A DNA stretch of 22,868 nt from a virus. Both the position numbers and the translations under genes were made by a program. The DNA lies in IMG/VR virus record IMGVR_UViG_3300005782_000031, positions 1 through 22,868 of that record. One strand, 5' to 3'. Position 1 is the first letter of the stretch. The number at the start of each line of letters is the position of its first letter. Positions 8,900-22,565 of this stretch are shown here, one piece after another. A model generated the notes under the pieces. That model was not told the DNA's origin. It did no database searches and worked only from the letters and a program-made list of their open reading frames with translations.

Positions 8900-8956
8900 A
8901 TGAACCAAAACGGCTTCAAACTCATTCACTACATTGAATGGAATATAGAGAGATGA
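8900..8956 (+). other. Tiny upstream ORF overlapping the sulfotransferase start
   Basis: ATG 8900 to TGA 8954-8956 encodes 18 residues (MNQNGFKLIHYIEWNIER). Its stop overlaps the ATG at 8953 as ATGA, an arrangement that allows translational coupling. It has no clear Shine-Dalgarno. It may be a leader peptide, a remnant of a lost gene, or chance. Confidence 0.3.
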
Positions 8957-9504
8957 ATACTTTTTTCATAACAGGTTTCCCGAGGACAAGAACGGCCTGG
9001 TTGGCTAACTTTTTCACTTATGGTAATAGTTTTTGTTTTCATGAAGCCATAAAGCAATGCAACAACATAACTGATTTGAAGGATTTATTTGTATCAACAG
9101 GAAAACAGTATGTTGGGAATAGCGATAGCGTGATTCCATTTTTTGCTAAACGGGTTAATGAACTATTTCCTCAAGCTAAATGGGTCATAATTGAAAGAGA
9201 TGAACAGGATGTAATAAAAAGCCTTGATAGGGTATTGCCGGGTTCAGAAAAGCAGAACGTATTGAATATCGGTAAACCGCTTTTAACATGGGTAAAAAAG
9301 ACATGTAATCCTTTAATGATAAATTTCTCTGAACTTAGCACTCAACGAGAATGTAAAAGGATATGGGAATATTGTTTGCCGACTATTCCATTTGATGAAA
9401 TGAGATGGAAGATGTTGGATAAGTTGCGAATAGAACTTATATTAGATGAATCAACTTTTAACGTTGAACCATACATTAATCTTTTTAAAACAATGGAGAG
9501 ATAA
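8953..9504 (+). CDS. Sulfotransferase-like protein
   Basis: A 183-residue protein (an alternative in-frame ATG at 8938 would add 5 residues). The start at 8953 puts the first beta strand at the N-terminus, as usual in this fold, and forms an ATGA overlap with an 18-codon ORF. Motifs: a P-loop-like PAPS-binding segment FFITGFPRTRTAWLANFF (residues 4-21), a histidine soon after (CFHEAI), and a later IIERDEQDVIKSL resembling the 3'-phosphate-binding strand-helix. Sulfotransferases move sulfate from PAPS to hydroxyl or amine groups on glycans, lipids or proteins. It is shorter than typical cellular enzymes. It sits between tail and internal virion genes, so the substrate might be a host-surface glycan or a virion component; this is unproven. 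Confidence 0.7.
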   Translation: MNTFFITGFPRTRTAWLANFFTYGNSFCFHEAIKQCNNITDLKDLFVSTGKQYVGNSDSVIPFFAKRVNELFPQAKWVIIERDEQDVIKSLDRVLPGSEKQNVLNIGKPLLTWVKKTCNPLMINFSELSTQRECKRIWEYCLPTIPFDEMRWKMLDKLRIELILDESTFNVEPYINLFKTMER

Positions 9505-10739: not shown

Positions 10740-12623
10740 ATGGCAAATGGATTAGCAATGAGATCTGAAGAAGACTTTGAAAAGAGATATGATAGAGAAC
10801 TTCAAGAAGGGGGGTTTGACATAGAAGGCATAACTACTTCTCAGCGTGGCCTTGAGGAGAAGCCTATATCTACCGATCCTGGAATTAAGGCCCTAGAAGC
10901 CTATGATACTAAGTTCTGGGATAAAAAATCAGGTAAATATCTTCAAGGAAGAGGATCGGTGAAAGACAAAATGAAATTCATAGAGGCCTTCTCGTTAGGA
11001 AAAGAACGATCTGAACCATCATCCATGAATTTATTAGGAGAAGAAAGAAAGTCAACATATGAGTATAGTCCAGATGAACCAACCCAATTACATCAAATGC
11101 TCTTCTCAGGGAAAGGTGTTGCAAAGACTGCATTAGAACAAGAGGGAAAGAGAGGGCTTAGACCACAAATGAGCAGAGAGGAAATAGCCAGAGGCATGGA
11201 GACCAATATGCCAGAATTATCCTCTGAGCGAAATCGCAGGCTTGGACTTAAGGAGCCAGAAGAACGCAGACGCGGTTCATTACGAGCCCAAAAGATGCAA
11301 GAGGAGATACGTAGTATGCGGTTGCGTAATGATGTTGAGGAATATGGGCGTGATATGAAGGAGGCATTGACCGAACTCGCCCAGGCTGTTGATGCCCACA
11401 AAAATGAAGACTATAAGCAGGCTGCTATCTATGTTACAAGGGCTTATGATAAAGTCCCTGATGGAGGTGTGACATTAGATATAGGTCCGCCTAGAAATTC
11501 AATAGCCGAGAGGATAGCATATGGTGGTGAGGCTAATGAGGCCATAACGGTCAAAGATCCACAGGGGAACATTCGCTATTTGCCAGTCAACAAAAATGCA
11601 GTTGGTGCACTAATAGAACAGGCAAAGCCAGTATTCAATCCACAGGAATACATTACAACCAGAGCGAAGATGAAGATGAAGATGGAAGCGTACAATGCTG
11701 ATCAGATTGCCCATCCTCTTCGTTTCGAGGACGGAACCGTTACCATTGATCAGGTCGATGAAAAGGGCATAAAGAAAACCGAATGGTTCGCCACTGAAGA
11801 AGAATATATAGAAAAATATGGCAAGCCTAAACAGTGGGTAGTTCCAGAATATGAGAAAGCTCAGGCAGATTTGGAAGCTAAGAAAATGGAGACAAGGAGA
11901 AAGAGATTTATGACATCCCCAGGCGGTCTTGTCTATATTGGTAGACTAGGAGAGGAGCCCGGGATAGTTCCGGGAACTGAACCGCCGATAAGAACAACAG
12001 GAAAGGGTCCAACAATCCTTGATCCTTCTAAAATGGTAAAGGGACGCGATGAGAAAGGGAATGAGGTAAATGGATGGGTAATCAATGGTAAATTCCTTCC
12101 TATGCCAAATGTTTCCAAAATTCTAAGTAAAAAAGGCACTATCACCCAAAAAGACATAATCACGATGTATAAAGATTTTGAGAAGGCTTACCATAGTACT
12201 TTCTATGGTGAGAAAGGATATCCCGATTTTCAGGACACACAAACAGGCAAGATTATTAAGGGAGGCTCAGATGAGCATATTAGAGATTGGGTCAATAAAG
12301 CTATGAGGCGGATTCTGCCTCCTGAATATCAACGCCCTCTCCCAGGTATAGATGAGCAAATTGAAAGGAAAGGTTTATCTAAAGGACCTAAAACACAATT
12401 ACCACCTAGGGATAAAGAAAAACCATCCAAACCAGGAATGCGCTCTATAAGTCAACCTACAACAAAGAAAGCAAAGAAAACGCTTGTATCGGTAAAAAGG
12501 AATAAAACTACCGGCGATGTAGTTAAGATTTACTCAGATGGTACCAGGGAAACAATAATAGCTCCTCCCGGATCAGAGGCAACAAGAAAAAGAATAGAGC
12601 CAGGGGTTGGGTTAGGTAGATGA
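10740..12623 (+). CDS. Putative internal virion protein, 627 aa, unknown domain content
   Basis: A 627-residue, highly charged, mainly helical protein with an AGAGGAG ribosome binding site. No catalytic motif, signal peptide or membrane segment is visible. Residues about 180-250 form a long helix (RMKEALTELAQAVDAHKNED-like spacing) followed by YKQAAIYVTRAYDKVPDGG, which could be a helical-repeat turn. The last 130 residues are lysine- and proline-rich and probably disordered. Its end overlaps the giant gene as ATGA, so the two are likely translated together. By position it is the second of three candidate internal virion or ejection proteins. Function unknown. Confidence 0.6.
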   Translation: MANGLAMRSEEDFEKRYDRELQEGGFDIEGITTSQRGLEEKPISTDPGIKALEAYDTKFWDKKSGKYLQGRGSVKDKMKFIEAFSLGKERSEPSSMNLLGEERKSTYEYSPDEPTQLHQMLFSGKGVAKTALEQEGKRGLRPQMSREEIARGMETNMPELSSERNRRLGLKEPEERRRGSLRAQKMQEEIRSMRLRNDVEEYGRDMKEALTELAQAVDAHKNEDYKQAAIYVTRAYDKVPDGGVTLDIGPPRNSIAERIAYGGEANEAITVKDPQGNIRYLPVNKNAVGALIEQAKPVFNPQEYITTRAKMKMKMEAYNADQIAHPLRFEDGTVTIDQVDEKGIKKTEWFATEEEYIEKYGKPKQWVVPEYEKAQADLEAKKMETRRKRFMTSPGGLVYIGRLGEEPGIVPGTEPPIRTTGKGPTILDPSKMVKGRDEKGNEVNGWVINGKFLPMPNVSKILSKKGTITQKDIITMYKDFEKAYHSTFYGEKGYPDFQDTQTGKIIKGGSDEHIRDWVNKAMRRILPPEYQRPLPGIDEQIERKGLSKGPKTQLPPRDKEKPSKPGMRSISQPTTKKAKKTLVSVKRNKTTGDVVKIYSDGTRETIIAPPGSEATRKRIEPGVGLGR

Positions 12624-15600
12624 ACGGATTAAAAACAAGAGAACAAGATAAGCGATTTGTTCCCGTGCCGGAGGCCGTCAAGGACGAATATGGCCCTGAA
12701 TGGGAAGATGTTACAGAAGAATATAGGCCTTTTCAAGAATATAAAGAGGATGAATGGGAAGATGTTACGCATGAATATAAAGAGGAGATAGCGCCTCCAA
12801 GGGAGATAGAGCCTCCAAAAGCGCCTAAAGGGCTGAGGCCAGCAAAAGTAGGCTTAGGCGTTGCAAAATCAGTAGGTAAAACCTTACTTCGCTTTGGCCC
12901 TAATTTAGCAAAAATATTAGATCAAACAATAGGTTTCGCAGGCGGTACACTGGAGAGTACAGCTAAAACTATGGGTGAAGTTACTGCCCTTGAGGGGATG
13001 TTTAAACCTTATGAAAAGGCTGGTAAGGTGATAAAGGATTGGGGCCTGCAAGCGGCTGAAGACATACAGGGTAATATTTTAGAAACCCAGGATTGGTTAA
13101 ATTTGCCTAAAGAGAAGCGAGGCCGATTGATTGAGAATCTTAATTACTTAGCCGACCCAGAATGGTTGGCCTTTAATATCGGTGATGCTGCTCAATCGAT
13201 GGGCGCTATGGTTGCTGCTACCGTTTACGCTGGCCCTGGTGCAGGCATGGCAGTTGCTGGTGCTATGGAAGCAGGCGATCTATATGGTAACTTGATAAAG
13301 GATGGTATTGACCATGAAGTAGCGGCACTCGCAACATTGTCATTTGGCACTGTGGTAGCTACATTAAACAGGATAGGGTTACGTCAATTAGCCAAAAAAC
13401 CAGTGGGGAATATCCTCAAAAACATTGCTAACAGATTCACTGGTGGGGCGGTAGAGGCTACCACTGAATACATGGAAGAACCATTTGAGGCAGTGTTTAA
13501 TGCCTTGGCAAGGGGTAAAAATCCAAAAGAAATCGGATCAGATGTAATTCAGTCGCTTAAAAACATTGATGTTATTCCTGGATCTTTTGTTTTAGGTGCA
13601 GGCATGGCTGGAAAAGCTCCCTTAGCTCCTCCCACTGACAAACCCACTGACCTCCTCGATATCGTTGAGCCAGGAGCCAAATACCTTAAGGCAATCGGAT
13701 CCGATGTAAAGAAGGGCCTCATAACCCCAGAACAACTTCAAGATCTTGGAAAAGAATTCAGACAGAAATTTCCACAAAGCACAAAATCTATTCAGGAATT
13801 CGATAGCTTAATCGAGGCACAGGCGCAACTTCAGCCTATCGAGCCTACCGAGGTTGTAGAGGAGGGGGCTATACCGCTTGAGGAAGTGATGCCTCCTGAA
13901 GAGGCAGTTATTGAACCAGAGCCTATTGAGATAGAGCCTGAAGTTCTTGAGCCTGTTGAGGAGCCAGTGATTGAGGAAGAAATAATCCCTGAAGAGGCAA
14001 AATTACCCCCCCCAGAACTCGAAATTAAGCCCACAGTAGAAGCAAAGCCTGAGGAGGTAGGTAAGCCTATCCCAGAGGTTAAAAAGCCTTGGGAGATGTC
14101 AAAGGACGAATGGTTACGTAGTAAAACAGCAGATGAAGGGCAATTTAGACTGCTTAAAGCAGATAAAATTGTCGGGGCAACAATGATTAAGGCACAACAT
14201 GAGGTTGCTGTACGTGATGCCATCTCCGAAGGCAAAATCACCTCCCACCCTGATTATCCTGAATTGGGGAAGGTTGAACCCACCACACAAGAAATAGATA
14301 AGGCAGCTAAAGAAACTGAGACTGACCTCACCGAAGCGCAAAAAAAGACGGGAAAATATGAGAAAGGACGCATCAACCTTCACGGCTTTGACATTGACAT
14401 AGAGAATCCTAAAGGTTCTGTGCGATCCGGCGTTGATCGGCAAGGAAAGAAGTGGTCAATAAAGCTAAAACACCATTATGGCGAAATTCTAGGGGTCAAA
14501 GGGAAGGACAAGGACTGGCTCGATGTTTTCATCGGCCCTAATCCAGAAAGCGATAAAATCTTTGTGATCGACCAGGTGGATCCGGAGACAGGCAACTTTG
14601 ACGAACACAAGATCTTGATGGGATTTCCCACAGAAAAACAGGCCCGGGTAGGGTATCTGGCGAATTATGAGCGGGCGTGGAAAGGGCTGGGTGAGATAAC
14701 AGAGCTTACAGTAGATGAGTTTAAGGAATGGACGAAGACAGGCGATACTACTAAGGCAATAGGAGAGGTAATCAAAGAACCCCCAGAGATCGAAGTCATC
14801 CCCTACTCAAAGGATCTTGATATCAGGAATATAGAAGCCCTTCCAAGGGGAACCGGGGCCAGGTACTTAGAGGTTATCAGAGGCGAAAAGGACGAATATA
14901 TTGCAAAACTGTGGCGGCGAAAGGCTACAGATAAAGGGATACTGATTGATTTTAAGCCTACTGAAGTTGAAATTCCCCCACGCCCTTTAGTCAATCCCAA
15001 AGCAACCTATTTACAGCAAGATAAACAACTCCGTAAACAGCAAGCATGGGATAAAAAATATGGGGAGATAAAGAAAAAACCTACTCCTGAAGAAGCCAGA
15101 GCCAAGGCAACCGAAGTCGGTCGAAAAGCCCGTGAAACTCAACTGAAAAAAGCCGCCTCTCAGAAATACCTTGTCCCCTGGATAGCTGCAAGTGGAGGAA
15201 TAAAGCCACTGGATCTGAGCGGGGAGATCAGGGATATAATTTGGACAAGGGATGCAAAGGGTAAAAAAAAGATAATGAGGGGCATCCCCCCCGGCTTCCT
15301 AAGTGGAAAAGGCCGGACACTTGATGTTATTGTCACAGAGGCGAACGAGGCCGGCTTTAGCGTCAGGGACGATAATCAATTGATTGAACTGATAGAAAAA
15401 GACTTGACAGCAGCATCTACAGGTGATATAAAAGGAAGAGTAGGTAAGATCACTACCGAGCTTACTACACAAGAAGAATTTAATGAAGGATTGATTGAAC
15501 ATGAACGACAAAAACTCAGAGATCAAGGATATACCGAGGAACAAATTAAACGGGCTGAAGAAGGCATTGAAACTGAGGAAGTTGTATCTCCTGAAGAAAA

Positions 15601-18600
15601 AGCAGACCCCGACAAAGCCTACCAAGACCTAAAAGATTTCTTTGAAGAAGCCCCCTTCGAACTAAAACCCACCGAACCCACCCCAGAAGAAAAAATCGCA
15701 ATAGGCAAAGAGCGCGGGGAGATAGTTGCGCCTGAGAAAGCAAAGAAAAAACCCGTCATCCCCACCGAAAAGATCCCCGTGGCCACCAAAGGCGAACAAG
15801 TGTCTTTGCTGCCTCCTGTGAAAGGTGAGCAGATTACGATTGAAGGTCTGATTGATTCAATCAAAGATACCCTCAAAAATGAACGCGGCTCCATCTCCTT
15901 CGAGAGAATGAACAAAGACCATCCCGCCGTATTCGATAACCTCGTAACCATCGGTAAAGACGTCATAAGCGAAGGCCACACCAAATATTCCGATTTTGCA
16001 AAACAAATGAGGGACAAATTTTCCGAGATATGGGACAAGATCAGAAATGTAATGATGAGAGTGTGGAGGGCTGCCACTGCGAAGTTGAAGGAGGAGACCG
16101 GGGCGATTTATTACAAGGAGACGAAGATCAAACCCAAAGACGGGCAATGGGCCAAAGACTACCTTGATAAACTCACAAAGAAAATTGATAAGGAAAAGGC
16201 CATCGCCCAAGCAAAGAAACAAGAAGAAAGCCTGAAAGAAACCCCCAAAGAAGAAGATAAACCCAAAGAGCCTTCTCCGTATGAAAAAAGGGAAGATGAT
16301 TGGTTTGGCAATAAAGATTGGGATCAACAGGTACATACAGTTGAGGCCAGTAAGATACAGGATGCCATTAAGACTATCCTGAACAAAAACCGATATGATA
16401 GGGATTGCCAGAATATTGATCAGGCAATTCATATTTATCTTGATATTAAGAGAAACCCTGCTCATGTTGATGAGTATTATGATGAGCTCACCGATGATCA
16501 GAAAAAGATTGTAAATTTGGCTGCCACAATTGAAGATAACCCGGGATTGATGAAAGTGTCTGAATATATAAGTGAGCAATATGAGAAGGTTGGTCAAATT
16601 GCCAAAAGTCAGAATGTTATCTTCAATACCATAGATAACTATGTTGCCCGGGCCTGGAAGATCCCCAAAAAACTTTCTACCGATATTATGCAAAAATTCA
16701 AGACTACTTCCAGACATGCAAAGCATAGGGTATTTGAGACCATTCTTGAGGGCCAGGCCAAGGGATTTGAATTGGAAGTTACCGGAGCCTCTAATAACTT
16801 AGAGCTCCTCAAGGATGAGATCTCACGAACTATTGAGGATAAAAGACTCATTTCAACATTAAGGAAAACAGAATGGAAAGATACCGGAAATCCTGTCATT
16901 ATCCATAAGCAACTCAAGGGATATGAAGAAATTGAGCATCCTAACTTTACTTATTGGGTTCCAGAGGCCAGAATAAAGGCAGGAGATACAAAAGTATACG
17001 GGCCTAAATTCAGGGTTCAGACTAATTGGGGAGCCATAAAAGAGGGCAATACAAGGGCAACAAAACTCTTCGATAGTGAAGAAGCGGCTAAATTGTGGCT
17101 AAAGGATCAAGATGATGCCGATAAATTCAGGATAGAGAAAAGGGAATATTTATGGAGAAGGGAGCCTTTATATGCCCCTGAAGAGATTGCAAAGAGATTG
17201 AATAAGATCTTAGGGGTATCCAAATTAAAAGGTCTTGGACCTATAGATACCATTACAAAATATAATGCTATCTTTAAATCGACAATCCTAATGACTTCTC
17301 TCTTTCATCATCAAGCTTTTATTAGATCATACCTCCTCGGAACACGCCATAAGACACTTGCTGAATGGAACCCCTTTAAAATGTATAAGGAAGGATTGAA
17401 GGCTGTTAATGAGTTAAGGCCTGAGATTGAGCTATTGGTCAGAAATGGCCTCACCCTTGGCAAGATGCAGGATTGGGAAGAAAGTATATTAAGGAGCGAG
17501 GCCAATATATTTGGCAAAGTGTTGGATAAAACCGAGTACACTAAAGCTTTTAAGGAATGGGCTAATGATCTTAGAGAAAGACAGGCAAAATGGCTATTCC
17601 AAAACTTTGGTGCGGGATTGAAAGCTCAGGCCGCTTTGATCGAGTATAGAAATATGATGAAAGAGCAACCGGACCTTGAACCAAATGAGCGGGCTAAAAT
17701 GGTAGCCGAACTCATAAATGATGACTTTGGGGGCTTGCACCTGAGAAGGATGGGAAGGGATCCGACAATCAATCATATTTATAGGCTCCTGCTCCTAGCT
17801 CCGGATTGGACTTTTTCAAATGTCAATACTATGTGGAAAGCATTCATATCTGGAGATGCGGCCAAAACACATCTGTATAGACGTTTCTGGGCTTCAGTTA
17901 TAACAAAAGGTCTCACTGCCATGGTAATAGCCAATATTCTGTTATCATTCACAGATGAGGATGATCTTATTGAGAGATTCAAGAAAGCATGGAAAGCCGG
18001 ACATTTCAGATGGCTTGATATAGACGTGACTCCTATTTATAAGCTACTGGGAGGTAAATCAGAGGCAAGGAAGTATTTTTCAGTATTTGGTCATTTCAGG
18101 GATCCGATGAAGTTCATTACCCATCTAATTAGATCAGCAAAGCATAAAGGCTCTGTGTTTTTCCGAATGTTCTTTGAGGCCTTAACAGGAACCGATTGGA
18201 AAGGGCATCGATTCACTAGCTTGGATGAGTTGTTAGGCTATGACGATAAAGGCCTATATTTGACAGAAACCGAAGAACATAAAATCGGAGAGCCAAAGGG
18301 CGGCAGGATGCGGGGAGAAGTGGTTACACGTAGATATGGTAAGGAAGGAGCTATAGGATGGTCACAAATTCCCTCATATATGATTCATCAATTAAGAGCT
18401 GTAACCCCTGTCCAAGTCCAAAACTTCCTTGGCTGGCTACAGGGGGAGATAGAGGGATTTGACGCAATCGGAAGAAGTATAGGCGCTCATATGGGATCTA
18501 CCTATCCCACTGAGAGAAAGATTACTGAGGATTTTGTCAATCAATGGATAGAGATAAAAAGAGCCAGAGGATCATTTAAAGATTTAAAAAAGAAAGTAAA

Positions 18601-18733
18601 CGAGTATAATGAAAGACAATTGTTACGAGGAGAGAAAGGCATTCCTGTCTCCTGGTCAACCATATCTAAGAAAGGAATAAATATAATCAAAGCCGAAAGG
18701 GTAGGTGAGAAAAGAAAAGCCGTAAATTATTAG
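12620..18733 (+). CDS. Giant polyvalent internal virion protein with pyrophosphatase-like domain
   Basis: A 2037-residue protein overlapping the previous stop as ATGA. In order: an acidic N-terminus with two EWEDVT motifs (residues 27 and 45); an Ala/Gly-rich helical region with hydrophobic stretches (about 70-330, e.g. AQSMGAMVAATVYAGPGAG); an acidic Pro/Glu linker (about 405-487); a domain at about 583-715 (FDIDIENPKG, HHYGEILGVKG, DWLDVFIGPNP, DQVDPETGNFDEHKILMGF) matching the inorganic-pyrophosphatase-like domain of large polyvalent phage proteins; segments near 853-945 and 1087-1165 of a type often seen in such proteins; a Lys/Glu linker; and a long helical C-terminus (about 1546-2037) with NDDFGGLHLRRMGRDP and RLLLLAPDWTFSNV, resembling the conserved C-terminal domain of polyvalent proteins. 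It is probably packaged and ejected into the host with the DNA. Confidence 0.75.
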   Translation: MNGLKTREQDKRFVPVPEAVKDEYGPEWEDVTEEYRPFQEYKEDEWEDVTHEYKEEIAPPREIEPPKAPKGLRPAKVGLGVAKSVGKTLLRFGPNLAKILDQTIGFAGGTLESTAKTMGEVTALEGMFKPYEKAGKVIKDWGLQAAEDIQGNILETQDWLNLPKEKRGRLIENLNYLADPEWLAFNIGDAAQSMGAMVAATVYAGPGAGMAVAGAMEAGDLYGNLIKDGIDHEVAALATLSFGTVVATLNRIGLRQLAKKPVGNILKNIANRFTGGAVEATTEYMEEPFEAVFNALARGKNPKEIGSDVIQSLKNIDVIPGSFVLGAGMAGKAPLAPPTDKPTDLLDIVEPGAKYLKAIGSDVKKGLITPEQLQDLGKEFRQKFPQSTKSIQEFDSLIEAQAQLQPIEPTEVVEEGAIPLEEVMPPEEAVIEPEPIEIEPEVLEPVEEPVIEEEIIPEEAKLPPPELEIKPTVEAKPEEVGKPIPEVKKPWEMSKDEWLRSKTADEGQFRLLKADKIVGATMIKAQHEVAVRDAISEGKITSHPDYPELGKVEPTTQEIDKAAKETETDLTEAQKKTGKYEKGRINLHGFDIDIENPKGSVRSGVDRQGKKWSIKLKHHYGEILGVKGKDKDWLDVFIGPNPESDKIFVIDQVDPETGNFDEHKILMGFPTEKQARVGYLANYERAWKGLGEITELTVDEFKEWTKTGDTTKAIGEVIKEPPEIEVIPYSKDLDIRNIEALPRGTGARYLEVIRGEKDEYIAKLWRRKATDKGILIDFKPTEVEIPPRPLVNPKATYLQQDKQLRKQQAWDKKYGEIKKKPTPEEARAKATEVGRKARETQLKKAASQKYLVPWIAASGGIKPLDLSGEIRDIIWTRDAKGKKKIMRGIPPGFLSGKGRTLDVIVTEANEAGFSVRDDNQLIELIEKDLTAASTGDIKGRVGKITTELTTQEEFNEGLIEHERQKLRDQGYTEEQIKRAEEGIETEEVVSPEEKADPDKAYQDLKDFFEEAPFELKPTEPTPEEKIAIGKERGEIVAPEKAKKKPVIPTEKIPVATKGEQVSLLPPVKGEQITIEGLIDSIKDTLKNERGSISFERMNKDHPAVFDNLVTIGKDVISEGHTKYSDFAKQMRDKFSEIWDKIRNVMMRVWRAATAKLKEETGAIYYKETKIKPKDGQWAKDYLDKLTKKIDKEKAIAQAKKQEESLKETPKEEDKPKEPSPYEKREDDWFGNKDWDQQVHTVEASKIQDAIKTILNKNRYDRDCQNIDQAIHIYLDIKRNPAHVDEYYDELTDDQKKIVNLAATIEDNPGLMKVSEYISEQYEKVGQIAKSQNVIFNTIDNYVARAWKIPKKLSTDIMQKFKTTSRHAKHRVFETILEGQAKGFELEVTGASNNLELLKDEISRTIEDKRLISTLRKTEWKDTGNPVIIHKQLKGYEEIEHPNFTYWVPEARIKAGDTKVYGPKFRVQTNWGAIKEGNTRATKLFDSEEAAKLWLKDQDDADKFRIEKREYLWRREPLYAPEEIAKRLNKILGVSKLKGLGPIDTITKYNAIFKSTILMTSLFHHQAFIRSYLLGTRHKTLAEWNPFKMYKEGLKAVNELRPEIELLVRNGLTLGKMQDWEESILRSEANIFGKVLDKTEYTKAFKEWANDLRERQAKWLFQNFGAGLKAQAALIEYRNMMKEQPDLEPNERAKMVAELINDDFGGLHLRRMGRDPTINHIYRLLLLAPDWTFSNVNTMWKAFISGDAAKTHLYRRFWASVITKGLTAMVIANILLSFTDEDDLIERFKKAWKAGHFRWLDIDVTPIYKLLGGKSEARKYFSVFGHFRDPMKFITHLIRSAKHKGSVFFRMFFEALTGTDWKGHRFTSLDELLGYDDKGLYLTETEEHKIGEPKGGRMRGEVVTRRYGKEGAIGWSQIPSYMIHQLRAVTPVQVQNFLGWLQGEIEGFDAIGRSIGAHMGSTYPTERKITEDFVNQWIEIKRARGSFKDLKKKVNEYNERQLLRGEKGIPVSWSTISKKGINIIKAERVGEKRKAVNY

Positions 18734-18849: not shown

Positions 18850-18862
18850 AAGGAGAGAAAGC
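18850..18862 (+). promoter_or_regulatory. Ribosome binding site that sets the start at ATG 18863
   Basis: AAGGAG at 18850-18855 stands 7 bases before ATG 18863. An in-frame GTG at 18809 would extend the protein by 18 residues but lies inside the terminator-like loop and has no Shine-Dalgarno, so the ATG is preferred. Confidence 0.75.
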
Positions 18863-19234
18863 ATGTCTAACAAAAACATATTTATCAGAAATATTTTTAG
18901 TGCCGTTACTGTAGATGCAGCCGGTAATGAGGTATCCGAAGCCATCGACTTAGACGATTATAAACCAGAAGGATTTTTCTCATTGCAGATTACACTTACT
19001 GGAGATGGAACTGGAAAGTTTGAATATCAATTATCAAATGATGGTACAAATTATTTCACGCCATCAAGTGGTAGCGATATAGTGACTGCACATACTGTAG
19101 CGAGCGGACCCGGAGGCGATGGAAAGGATATTTACACTTTCCAACCTGAATTGGCGAAATATATGAAGATAAAGGTGACTGAAACAGTTGAGGCTAATAC
19201 CATTACGGTTACAGCAGATTTGGCGATACAATGA
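18863..19234 (+). CDS. Small virion protein upstream of the DGR target
   Basis: A 123-residue, beta-rich protein. It opens MSNKNIFIRNIFSAVTVDAA, continues with the charged segment IDLDDYKPEGFFSLQITLTG and GDGTGKFEYQLSNDGTNYF, and ends in a strand pattern (YMKIKVTETVEANTITVTAD). This looks like a compact jelly-roll or Ig-like virion protein. The stop overlaps the DGR target's start as ATGA, so the two are translationally coupled and probably made in fixed ratio. This suggests that it is the partner that anchors the variable protein to the tail, or its assembly adaptor. No family was recognised by name. The start choice rests on the AAGGAG ribosome binding site. Confidence 0.65.
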   Translation: MSNKNIFIRNIFSAVTVDAAGNEVSEAIDLDDYKPEGFFSLQITLTGDGTGKFEYQLSNDGTNYFTPSSGSDIVTAHTVASGPGGDGKDIYTFQPELAKYMKIKVTETVEANTITVTADLAIQ

Positions 19235-20880
19235 GAAATACAGGATTTCCTTTTCATGGCATTGGTTATTGGTCTAGAGGGCCTTGGCTTTCTGGCCCTT
19301 GGGATCATTCTATAAATGATATAGGCACACCAGGAAAAGTCGGTTTCGGCGTCGGGATATGCCCGATCCAGAGCATGGTTGCGAACTTCACATCTATGAC
19401 TGGAAATAGATCATCTGTCCATGACAACTACGGCAATTATCAATACCAGGACGGCTCCATCATGGTCTGGATTCCGAAGTTCTACTATCGGATTGCACAT
19501 GCAAACAATCCAACTTTCGGAACCTATGGGGTGAATTCAATAGACATTAAGGGCATCGACACCTATACATCGGAGACGGCTGCGAATGCCGATGGATACG
19601 CTCTTCCCAGGGCTTTTATAGATGGTGGCTCTACCAAGGATGGTTTTTTTATCGACAAATACATGTGCTCCAAGAATGCCTGGGGTGATGGTTATATCGG
19701 AAGTTCTATTAAGAATGGCGGTCCGATCTCTACCCATGCAGATCATAATCCTATTGCAGATTTAACGGCTTGTGCTTCAAATGCATATTTTGAGACCATA
19801 GATGCCGCCCACGCCAGAGATGGGGTGGATGGAGCCGTTAATGCAAGCAGCATCTTTCATGTAGCCTCCAAACTCCAATATTCTGCTCTCGCTATTCTTT
19901 CGATGGCCCACGCTCAGGCTTCTTCAGACACAACCTTTTGCGCCTGGTACGATGCTACCTACAACTATCCCAAGGGTTGCAACAATGATGCCTTACAGGA
20001 CTATGACGAAATAAGCAATGGGGCAGGGACAGGAGATGACCTGCTCTACACTTCAGATGGATACAGTAACTGCGGTAAGACCGGCTCTGGCGTTCCTTTT
20101 GCGAAATCGACTCACAATGGGCAAAATTGCGGTGTGGCTGACGTGAATGGCCTGATGTGGGAGGTGTCACTTGGGGTTACTACTATAATGGCAGACGACA
20201 CCATAGAGGATATATCGAGGGCAGACCCTGCCGTCGTGACCGAGACAGGCCATACGAAGGAGACTGGCGACTATGTGATGATCATAGGAATAGCAGGAGG
20301 TGACTGGGCTGGACTTGACGATAAAATCTACAAGGTCACAAAGATCAATGCCAATACTTATTCCCTGGATGGTGTAGATACAAGTGGCTTTACCTTGGCC
20401 TATGTGCAGGGCACGAATCATGGCACAACCACTTCTGGCACTTTCTATGCTTCCAAGGAAGCCACGGCGATGAAGGATTTTACAAGTGGTAATGCAGGCG
20501 CAACCGACCATTGGGGAGCAGCCGGTGTGGCTGCCATGATGGACTCCTTTGTGCCAGCATTTGAGACTGAATATGCAATCAATGGGCTTATTCAGAGATA
20601 TGGTAGTGGTGGAAATCAGGTATTGGCCGAAGATTTATCGGGTGCTGACTGGCTTTTGGCAGGGCTGGGGTTTCCGAAAGACAAAGATGGGATCGATACT
20701 ACTGGAACTAATCTTTTTGGCAAAGACTATTTTTATCAGTATTTGCGAAATGAATTGTGCTTGCGCTCGTGTGGGTCTTGGCGCAGCAGTTCGTCTGCGG
20801 GGGTTTGGTACGTGTCTTGGCTTCACTATCGGACGTCTTCCAGCAACAGTGTGGGCTTTCGGTGCGCCTTGTCGCCTTGA
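19231..20880 (+). CDS. DGR target: variable C-type-lectin/FGE-fold tip protein
   Basis: A 549-residue protein that is the target of the retroelement. The N-terminal 75 residues (GYWSRGPWLSGPWDHSINDI) probably attach it to the virion. The body follows the formylglycine-generating-enzyme variant of the C-type lectin fold: MVWIPKFYYRIAHAN, GFFIDKYMCSKN, ASKLQYSALAILSMAHAQ, then ADVNGLMWEVS (GLMWEV at residues 307-312). The C-terminus, LRSCGSWRSSSSAGVWYVSW to SVGFRCA, is the fold's last strand region and is the variable repeat (about residues 510-547). A roughly 70-residue FCCH-like beta domain (about 325-393) is inserted just after GLMWEVS. Known DGR targets in phages bind host receptors, so a receptor-binding tail-tip role is likely. 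Confidence 0.9.
   Translation: MRNTGFPFHGIGYWSRGPWLSGPWDHSINDIGTPGKVGFGVGICPIQSMVANFTSMTGNRSSVHDNYGNYQYQDGSIMVWIPKFYYRIAHANNPTFGTYGVNSIDIKGIDTYTSETAANADGYALPRAFIDGGSTKDGFFIDKYMCSKNAWGDGYIGSSIKNGGPISTHADHNPIADLTACASNAYFETIDAAHARDGVDGAVNASSIFHVASKLQYSALAILSMAHAQASSDTTFCAWYDATYNYPKGCNNDALQDYDEISNGAGTGDDLLYTSDGYSNCGKTGSGVPFAKSTHNGQNCGVADVNGLMWEVSLGVTTIMADDTIEDISRADPAVVTETGHTKETGDYVMIIGIAGGDWAGLDDKIYKVTKINANTYSLDGVDTSGFTLAYVQGTNHGTTTSGTFYASKEATAMKDFTSGNAGATDHWGAAGVAAMMDSFVPAFETEYAINGLIQRYGSGGNQVLAEDLSGADWLLAGLGFPKDKDGIDTTGTNLFGKDYFYQYLRNELCLRSCGSWRSSSSAGVWYVSWLHYRTSSSNSVGFRCALSP
20758..20869 (+). repeat. DGR variable repeat (VR)
   Basis: These 112 bases align without gaps to the template repeat at 21337-21448 (offset 579). 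By hand count, 26 of the 36 adenines of the template are replaced here (10 C, 9 G, 7 T), while only one of 76 non-adenine positions differs (template T 21344, here G 20765). Of 13 AAY codons in the template, 12 encode another residue here (Ser, Arg, Tyr, Leu, His). Four changes are silent (for example GCA to GCG and GTA to GTG), as expected from untargeted adenine mutagenesis. The repeat ends 11 bases before the end of the stop codon. Confidence 0.95.
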
Positions 20881-20883
20881 TTA

Positions 20884-20901
20884 GCCGCATGATAATGCGG
20901 C
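20884..20901 (+). promoter_or_regulatory. DGR target-site hairpin with GATA tetraloop
   Basis: GCCGCAT (20884-20890), loop GATA, ATGCGGC (20895-20901): a perfect 7-bp stem starting 3 bases after the target's stop codon. In the Bordetella phage DGR and relatives, a GC-rich hairpin or cruciform with a GRNA tetraloop just downstream of the VR promotes retrohoming. GATA fits GRNA. Confidence 0.8.
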
Positions 20902-20914
20902 ACTTAAGCTATAC

Positions 20915-21316
20915 ATGGGTATTCATAATGAAACAATTTTAAATAGAAAATTCTTAGAATTTGCAAAACTCTTAAATATTTACCTGAACCATTTTCCAAA
21001 ACATGAAAGGTATGCTCTTTCAAATAGAATCAGAGTTACATCATATGAAATCTATGATTTAATTATTGAAAGTCAGAAACGATATTATAAAAAGACAACT
21101 TTAACAAACTTAGATATAACTCATGAAAAGCTGAGAATGCAATTGTATCTTGCCTATGAACTTGGATATTTCAAATTTAAAGACGGGAAACAAATTGATA
21201 AATTGCCTGAAAAGTTAGAGGAACATAGGTTTGTAGCAATATCTAAACTGGTTGATGAATTGGGTAAAATGATAGGTGCCTGGATTAAAAAAGTTAAAGA
21301 GGAGGATAAATGGTAA
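20915..21316 (+). CDS. avd: DGR accessory variability protein Avd
   Basis: A 133-residue protein of the Avd family (four-helix bundle, bAvd/S23-like). The hallmark segment HFPKHERYALSNRIRVTSYE (about residues 27-46) is followed by helices with AYELGYFKF and a basic, tryptophan-containing C-terminus (AWIKKVKEEDKW). In BPP-1, Avd forms a basic pentamer that binds the reverse transcriptase and the TR RNA and is needed for mutagenic cDNA synthesis. The gene starts 13 bases after the target-site hairpin and has no visible Shine-Dalgarno, so translation may depend on coupling or on the hairpin region. It is more AT-rich than the target gene. It lies between VR and TR as in BPP-1. Confidence 0.9.
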   Translation: MGIHNETILNRKFLEFAKLLNIYLNHFPKHERYALSNRIRVTSYEIYDLIIESQKRYYKKTTLTNLDITHEKLRMQLYLAYELGYFKFKDGKQIDKLPEKLEEHRFVAISKLVDELGKMIGAWIKKVKEEDKW

Positions 21317-21575
21317 TTTAGGGCAACATATTGATATGCTTGCTATCGTGTAGGAATTGGAACAACAGTTCGAATGCAGGAGTTTGGAACGTGAATTGGA
21401 ATAACAATCGGACGAATTCCAACAACAATGTAGGATTTCAGTGCGACTATAATTTCACCTCAAACTCCAAATTGGAGATAGTGGAATTACAGGGATATGT
21501 TGTCCTGCCTTGGGCGAAATCAATTTAAAGCTTTCTTTTTGGTAGGTAATAGGCCGAAAATCAGGAAGTGATTTC
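21317..21575 (+). ncRNA. DGR template RNA (spacer-TR-spacer between avd and RT)
   Basis: A 259-base stretch without a credible protein between the avd stop and the RT start. It contains the TR plus about 127 bases of downstream spacer, the portion that in BPP-1 is required for self-primed cDNA synthesis. A small palindrome CTCCAA-A-TTGGAG (21465-21477) lies just past the TR. A readable frame through the TR is a by-product of its matching the target's frame. RNA ends cannot be placed from sequence. Confidence 0.75.
21337..21448 (+). repeat. DGR template repeat (TR)
   Basis: The invariant adenine-rich template for the VR. In the target's frame it carries 13 asparagine codons (AAC or AAT), grouped in WNNSSNAGVWNVNWNNNRTN and NNN, the usual codon choice that can be mutated to many residues but never to stop. 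Homology to the VR begins at TGCTTGC and stops just after GTGCGACT; beyond base 21450 the two sequences are unrelated. Confidence 0.95.
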
Positions 21576-22565
21576 ATGAAAAGAATTGGTCAATTATTTG
21601 ATAAAGTTTTCTCAGAGGAAAATCTATATCAAGCTTATCTGGATGCAAGAAAAGGCAAAAGAAAGAAGAGATCTTGTTTTGAATTTGAGATAAATTTGGG
21701 GACGAATTTAACAGATTTGTATGAAGAAATACATAACAAAACTTATTATCCAAAGCGGTATTTCAAATTCGTGATATATGAGCCAAAAAGAAGAATTATT
21801 TATGCACCAGCATTTAGGGACATCGTGGTTCAGCATGCTATTTATAGAATTATCTATAAAATCTTTGACAGAAGCTTTATCAATACATCTTTTGCTTGCA
21901 GATTGGGATATGGAACCCATAGGGCAAGCGATTATACACAACAGGCTTTGAGACAATATGATAAAGATCTTTATACGTTAAAGTTAGATATCAAGAAATT
22001 CTTCTATTCAATAAACAGGGATATTTTAAGAAGCTTAATTGAACGCAAGATCAAAGATAAAAGACTGGTTGATATTATGATGATATTTGCTGAGAATGAT
22101 GATCAATTAGGAATTCCTATTGGCAACCTGCTTAGTCAGATCTATGCACTTATATATCTGAATCCGTTGGATCACTTCATAAAGCGAGTTTTAAAAGTCA
22201 AACATTATGTCAGATACGTAGATGATTTCATTTTGATCGGACTCACAAGGGATAAATGTTTAGAATTCCGTAGAACTATTGTTGGATTTCTTAAAGAAAA
22301 TTTACATTTAGAGTTGTCCAAATCAACTATCCAGAAAGTCAAGCGTGGAATTAATTTTGTCGGATACAGAACTTGGAAAAGAAAGAGATTCATAAGAAAA
22401 TATAGTCTTTATAAATTTCGACGAGCTGTTAAAAATAAAAAACAGGAGGCTATTATTTCTTTACTTGGTCACGCTAAAAAAACTAATTCATTATTATACA
22501 TGATGAAGATTTTAAAGGAGTCACCAAATGCCGAAAGTATATACTTACCGAAAAATTATAGATAA
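21576..22565 (+). CDS. DGR reverse transcriptase
   Basis: A 329-residue reverse transcriptase of the DGR clade. Start ATG 21576 follows AGGAAG by 7 bases. Motifs: a fingers segment with YYPKRYFKFVIYEPKRRIIY, ACRLGYGTHRAS, motif A LKLDIKKFFYSI with catalytic D138, motif B as IGNLLSQ (G183, S187, Q188), which is the DGR-type [IVL]GxxxSQ in place of the QGxxxSP of group II intron and retron enzymes, and motif C YVDD (residues 214-217) with the two catalytic aspartates. The end (SIYLPKNYR) is compact, with no maturase or endonuclease domain. Together with Avd it copies TR RNA into adenine-mutated cDNA. The last 38 bases overlap the next ORF. Confidence 0.95.
   Translation: MKRIGQLFDKVFSEENLYQAYLDARKGKRKKRSCFEFEINLGTNLTDLYEEIHNKTYYPKRYFKFVIYEPKRRIIYAPAFRDIVVQHAIYRIIYKIFDRSFINTSFACRLGYGTHRASDYTQQALRQYDKDLYTLKLDIKKFFYSINRDILRSLIERKIKDKRLVDIMMIFAENDDQLGIPIGNLLSQIYALIYLNPLDHFIKRVLKVKHYVRYVDDFILIGLTRDKCLEFRRTIVGFLKENLHLELSKSTIQKVKRGINFVGYRTWKRKRFIRKYSLYKFRRAVKNKKQEAIISLLGHAKKTNSLLYMMKILKESPNAESIYLPKNYR

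Follow-up and report, generated by a model that had tools for sequence, protein, structure and literature searches.

The DGR (diversity-generating retroelement) of Bordetella phage BPP-1 has the annotated gene order mtd/VR, avd (bbp7), TR and brt. According to PMC12875486, the structure of the BPP-1 spacer recruits RT-Avd, and cDNA synthesis begins within IMH*, from a spacer adenine. A published consensus for the hairpins of phage DGRs (PMC3240598) has a GC-rich 7-10 bp stem and a GRNA loop and lies 4-34 bp past the VR. Metagenomes have already yielded a catalogue of more than 30,000 DGRs, and that survey (PMC8144416) reports signs of recent activity in 50-75% of DGRs and broad activity in nature.

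The window analysed here is a virus contig of 22,868 bases whose last 3.6 kb carry, we have little doubt, a complete BPP-1-type DGR in a phage tail/structural region. The element occupies 19231-22565, all on the + strand, and consists in order of a target gene with its VR, a hairpin, avd, the TR, a spacer RNA and the RT gene. A sequence-only reading of the same DNA had claimed that all parts were present in order, and that the order was that of BPP-1; each named part was found in its place, and the arrangement is identical to the annotated BPP-1 locus. Upstream, the ORF list and a profile search place a small gene of unknown function (phrog_5707; 18860-19234, +), the stop of which overlaps the start of the target gene (ATGA). 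The target ORF (19231-20880; 1,650 nt, 549 aa) has a predicted C-type lectin/FGE fold. The VR ends 11 nt short of the last base of the target, and the TR, at a VR-to-TR distance of 579 nt, lies between avd and the RT gene.

The TR (21335-21448) and the VR (20756-20869) can be aligned along their 114 nt with no gap. There are 28 mismatches, 27 at TR adenines and one at a non-A position (hypergeometric p about 8e-17 for the adenine bias), and 27 of the 37 TR adenines are substituted in the VR. The homology stops at TTTCAGTGCGACT in the TR and TTTCGGTGCGCCT in the VR, the IMH* and IMH sides, respectively. As had been noted from the sequence, all 13 asparagine codons (AAY) of the TR are in frame with the target; the other two frames contain stops and no such codon. 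No second VR or target was found in the window, where the next-best site matches 37 of the 79 non-A positions compared with 74 for the VR.

The DNA hairpin/cruciform GCCGCAT-GATA-ATGCGGC (20884-20901) begins 14 nt past the VR and folds better than 199 of 200 shuffles, with the one other shuffle equalling it. It also fits the consensus of PMC3240598, GATA being a GRNA loop and the 7-bp stem falling within the range. The avd ORF (accessory variability determinant; 20915-21316, 133 aa) matches Pfam bAvd PF22296 above the cut-off (3.4e-16) and phrog_3206, 'Avd protein of DGR' (4.7e-21); its score against NCBIfam NF033474 (71.7 bits) is under the cut-off of 80. The RT ORF (21576-22565, 329 aa) matches PF00078 and phrog_1423 (1.6e-100), and has both the IGNLLSQ and the YVDD motifs reported by the sequence-only reading. 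In a sequence search of the PDB with the RT alignment, the top match was the DGR-like RT 8ub7, which is not an independent result because the query alignment includes the BPP-1 RT; Avd and the target had no PDB match by sequence. No Rfam family matched anywhere in the 22,868 bases.

The structure of the target was modelled with AlphaFold2 (pLDDT 85.5). The best structural match of the model, and its closest solved structure, is TaqVP (Thermus aquaticus DGR variable protein, 5VF4; Z 28.6, rmsd 3.0, 298 residues aligned), followed by Mtd of BPP-1 (Z about 13) and formylglycine-generating enzymes (FGE), in agreement with the fold that had been proposed from the sequence. The target differs from TaqVP in having only 21% identity over the aligned part and in carrying an extra domain inserted within the lectin fold (residues 319-404; 20185-20442, +; from a domain search and a structure match). 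On model comparison this domain resembles the E1 FCCH barrel and flexible tail-tube proteins, and it is absent from several related targets (e.g. those of loci L031 and L055). The target is a probable receptor-binding or tail-tip protein.

The description of the phage as podovirus-like is reasonable, given a major head protein, two SU10-type adaptors and an internal virion protein on the contig. Downstream, the near-identical relative L002 goes on into genes for a phage lysozyme and a tyrosine integrase, and on these grounds the phage that carries the DGR is probably temperate. We found no nucleotide similarity between the first 8 kb of the window and named phages. Three other features of the contig are recorded here. 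A giant protein of 2037 aa (12620-18733) has an inorganic pyrophosphatase-like domain (PF18823, 2e-54; residues 572-706) of a type that also occurs in DarB-like and other large phage proteins. A sulfotransferase-like gene (8938-9504; PF17784, 7e-5; phrog_10855 'hydrolase', 3e-14) lies inside the structural module. Two similar, adjoining 172-aa genes (834-1352 and 1389-1907) beside the major head protein have the look of a tandem duplication.

To place the element among known DGRs, a tree was built from 32 RTs (29 from DGRs and three from group II introns). A 100/100 branch separates the DGR RTs from the intron RTs, and the window RT groups with all the other DGR RTs, which is the outcome of a check proposed beforehand. 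Within the DGRs, it falls in a well-supported clade with Pseudomonas phage Bise (OR683401), with a Helicobacter ganmani prophage as sister (100/99). Among 50,697 named phage records, the RT of Bise is the closest, at 62% identity. As to the earlier suggestion that this instance may be undescribed, there is no close relative among the named phages, but the element may be one of the more than 30,000 already catalogued.

The likeness to the BPP-1 DGR extends over the gene order, a VR at the 3' end of a C-type lectin target, the hairpin after the VR, Avd, the adenine mutagenesis pattern and the structural-gene setting. In contrast, the RTs are only about 35% identical, the first mismatch at the boundary is C in the TR and A in the VR of BPP-1 but A and C in the window, and the BPP-1 spacer was not detected by a covariance model of the clade's spacers (R1, below). 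With Bise, the window shares the RT clade, a boundary mark and the spacer RNA, whereas the phage itself is different, the target is shorter (1,095 nt as annotated versus 1,650 nt) and the VR-TR spacing is longer (714 nt versus 579 nt). The window element is complete and belongs, as an ordinary member, to a well-known class; the boundary mark and the spacer RNA may be its only new parts.

The boundary mark was recognised by comparison across relatives. A scan of IMG/VR yielded 80 loci with related RTs, and a TR/VR pair was found in 73 of these, always in the layout VR, TR, RT at similar distances; related elements also occur in genomes of Delta-, Gamma-, Beta- and Alphaproteobacteria and of Campylobacterota. 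In 71 of 74 elements (the window plus its viral relatives), the repeats stop being homologous at ACT on the TR side and CCT on the VR side. In the window these triplets are at 21446-21448 (IMH* side) and 20867-20869 (IMH side), the first C of the latter being opposite the A of the TR. The same mark is present in all 34 bacterial-genome relatives in which a TR/VR pair was found, in phage Bise and, by eye, in the Helicobacter ganmani prophage. When elements with ACT in the TR were scored with the base opposite the A left free, the boundary A faced C in 52 of 52 distinct TRs, whilst all four bases (A, C, G and T) occur opposite the other TR adenines. The exceptions are L004, with one VR base missing, L059, with ACC in the TR and GCC in the VR, and L027, in which the TR also has C. 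L027 (5409-5512), with a TR that ends in CCT as its VR does, may show if one-way transfer depends on the boundary base. A universal ACT/CCT mark across DGRs was considered and rejected: BPP-1 has C/A and VHML-like phages have C/T at the boundary, and the mark thus belongs to the clade of the window, which includes Bise.

The spacer RNA between the TR and the RT gene (21446-21541, +) has a fold that is conserved and covaries across the clade. The stretch beginning with ACT contains a conserved motif made up of CCTCAAA, a variable hairpin (in the window CTCCA-AATTGGAG, within 21465-21481), AGTGGA and then ACAGGGAT...TCC.GC..GCGAAATC. Across 49 sequences, 92% of the paired cells hold standard pairs compared with 77% in shuffles, and two-sided changes in paired cells number 108 compared with 29.5. 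The covariation score is 0.437 compared with 0.159 in shuffles (0/500), and at most 0.111 in slid controls. R1 detects the window spacer at 97.4 bits, the window being one of its training sequences; of the held-out relatives, 25 of 29 were found at E <= 0.01, with one match each, before the RT, and the held-out Bise spacer was found at 1.2e-15. Against BPP-1 and other DGR lineages R1 gave no match, only Bise being found. A stretch in common with BPP-1 (TGTCCTG.CTT.GGCGAA) was equalled or exceeded by shuffles in 7 of 2000 cases with the clade consensus and in 64 of 2000 with the window. Relative to what is known for BPP-1, what is added is comparative evidence from this clade.

Taken with the boundary mark, these results lead us to a tentative proposal, on which we stand slightly on the doubtful side of evenly balanced. 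A large clade of phage DGRs (Proteobacteria, Campylobacterota) would have its own boundary rules, in which a fixed A (TR)/C (VR) followed by CT sets the cDNA start and one-way transfer and is coupled to the conserved spacer RNA downstream. Such a single-base boundary would differ from the multi-base IMH/IMH* of BPP-1. We found no earlier description of the ACT/CCT mark or of the clade's spacer RNA in the limited part of the literature that was read, and we make no claim of priority.

Evidence for activity came from sister pairs, i.e. contigs with near-identical RT and TR and, where comparable, near-identical upstream DNA (for example, 600/600 identical in the pairs L060/L062, L018/L019 and L077/L081). 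Over 11 such pairs, VR differences fall on 129 of 362 TR-adenine sites compared with 5 of 918 other sites. This pattern is the signature of mutagenic retrohoming, and the clade is clearly active in nature. The window phage itself gives a different picture. L002 is the nearest locus, with 99.63% identity across 7,293 bases and with TR and VR both identical, and a pattern scan of IMG/VR that allowed N at each TR adenine found the L002 contig alone, with its VR unchanged. No VR change is thus seen in the window phage, since its sole near-identical relative has the same VR. For the DGR of the window, the earlier statement that the element is probably active is an inference; it is the sister phages that show such elements at work in nature.

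Two other observations concern the relatives. In L041 and L043, avd-TR-RT and the downstream DNA are identical while the targets have diverged (upstream of the VR, 391 of the 571 aligned bases agree), so that, from the alignment, one DGR core appears to have acquired a different target gene by a swap; a second target-like stretch is present in L041 at 714-1818. L099 and L115 are 100% identical DGR loci of 10,987 bases, about 35 kb apart on one Psychrobacter contig (NZ_CAJHBI010000012.1), and are either tandem prophage copies or an assembly artefact.

Three other readings of these data bear on class, activity and boundary. That the element is not a DGR at all, but an RT of group II intron-like or retron-like type with a repeat lying next to it by chance, might be suggested by the NCBIfam group II model, to which the RT has a weak match (114.6 bits; cut-off 300). 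However, the RT has IGNLLSQ in place of QGGPLSP (the group II form being QGxxxSP) and stands apart from the three intron RTs in the tree, Avd is present, and the TR and VR diverge at adenines; the adenine pattern, the phrog matches, the RT motif and the tree refute this reading, and it is scarcely conceivable. It is less far-fetched, although still improbable, that in this lineage of phages the DGR, though intact in sequence, works very rarely or not at all. The VR of L002 is identical despite 27 differences elsewhere, and signs of recent activity in the survey of PMC8144416 extend to 50-75% of DGRs, not to all. Those 27 differences, however, are all within 15868-16408 (about 540 bases in the 2037-aa gene, far from the DGR). 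Such clustering is consistent with a single recombination event, and the window and L002 are for this reason perhaps near-clones in which no VR change would be expected. Moreover, each part (RT, Avd, TR, hairpin, spacer) is intact, and sister lineages of the clade are active.

The reading with most weight, whilst still rather unlikely, is that ACT/CCT is no mechanistic mark: the TR A would be copied and mutagenised like any other, and selection on the C-terminal strand would keep only C (Ala). The boundary C does encode a nearly invariant alanine, A546, and TR adenines 6-14 nt upstream of it mostly face G in the VR, which is what the conserved Gly and Arg of VGFR would require. Selection on the target protein may therefore explain the mostly-G positions, and selection on the Ala codon may add to the constancy of the VR boundary C. 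It cannot account for the conserved A of the TR, because translation of the target does not include the TR. The TR nevertheless keeps ACT (52 of 52 distinct TRs; 71 of 74 overall), which needs a reason at the level of RNA; if not through the protein, the conserved ACT must matter as RNA. The C is, in addition, never replaced, even between sister VRs that differ at many sites.

Returning to a mechanistic boundary, the steps can be proposed by analogy with BPP-1. A transcript across avd, TR and spacer would be bound by RT and Avd via the folded spacer, cDNA would be synthesised from the 3' end of the TR with adenines misread, and the cDNA would replace the VR with the help of the hairpin. On the simplest reading, the cDNA would start just 5' of the TR ACT. 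The A at 21446 would then never be transferred, and the VR would therefore keep its C at 20867, which in turn would keep the transfer one-way. The outcome would be phages with differing receptor-binding surfaces.

The window element itself is one more phage DGR among the tens of thousands catalogued. The wider interest lies in its clade, where sister phages with the same machinery and different VRs provide a record of retrohoming in nature. The near-invariant ACT/CCT boundary and the covarying spacer predict where the cDNA would start and what would make the TR act as donor and the VR as recipient, and the spacer model could locate DGRs on contigs that lack a target or an RT. If true, a single-base boundary would define a minimal, portable target site.
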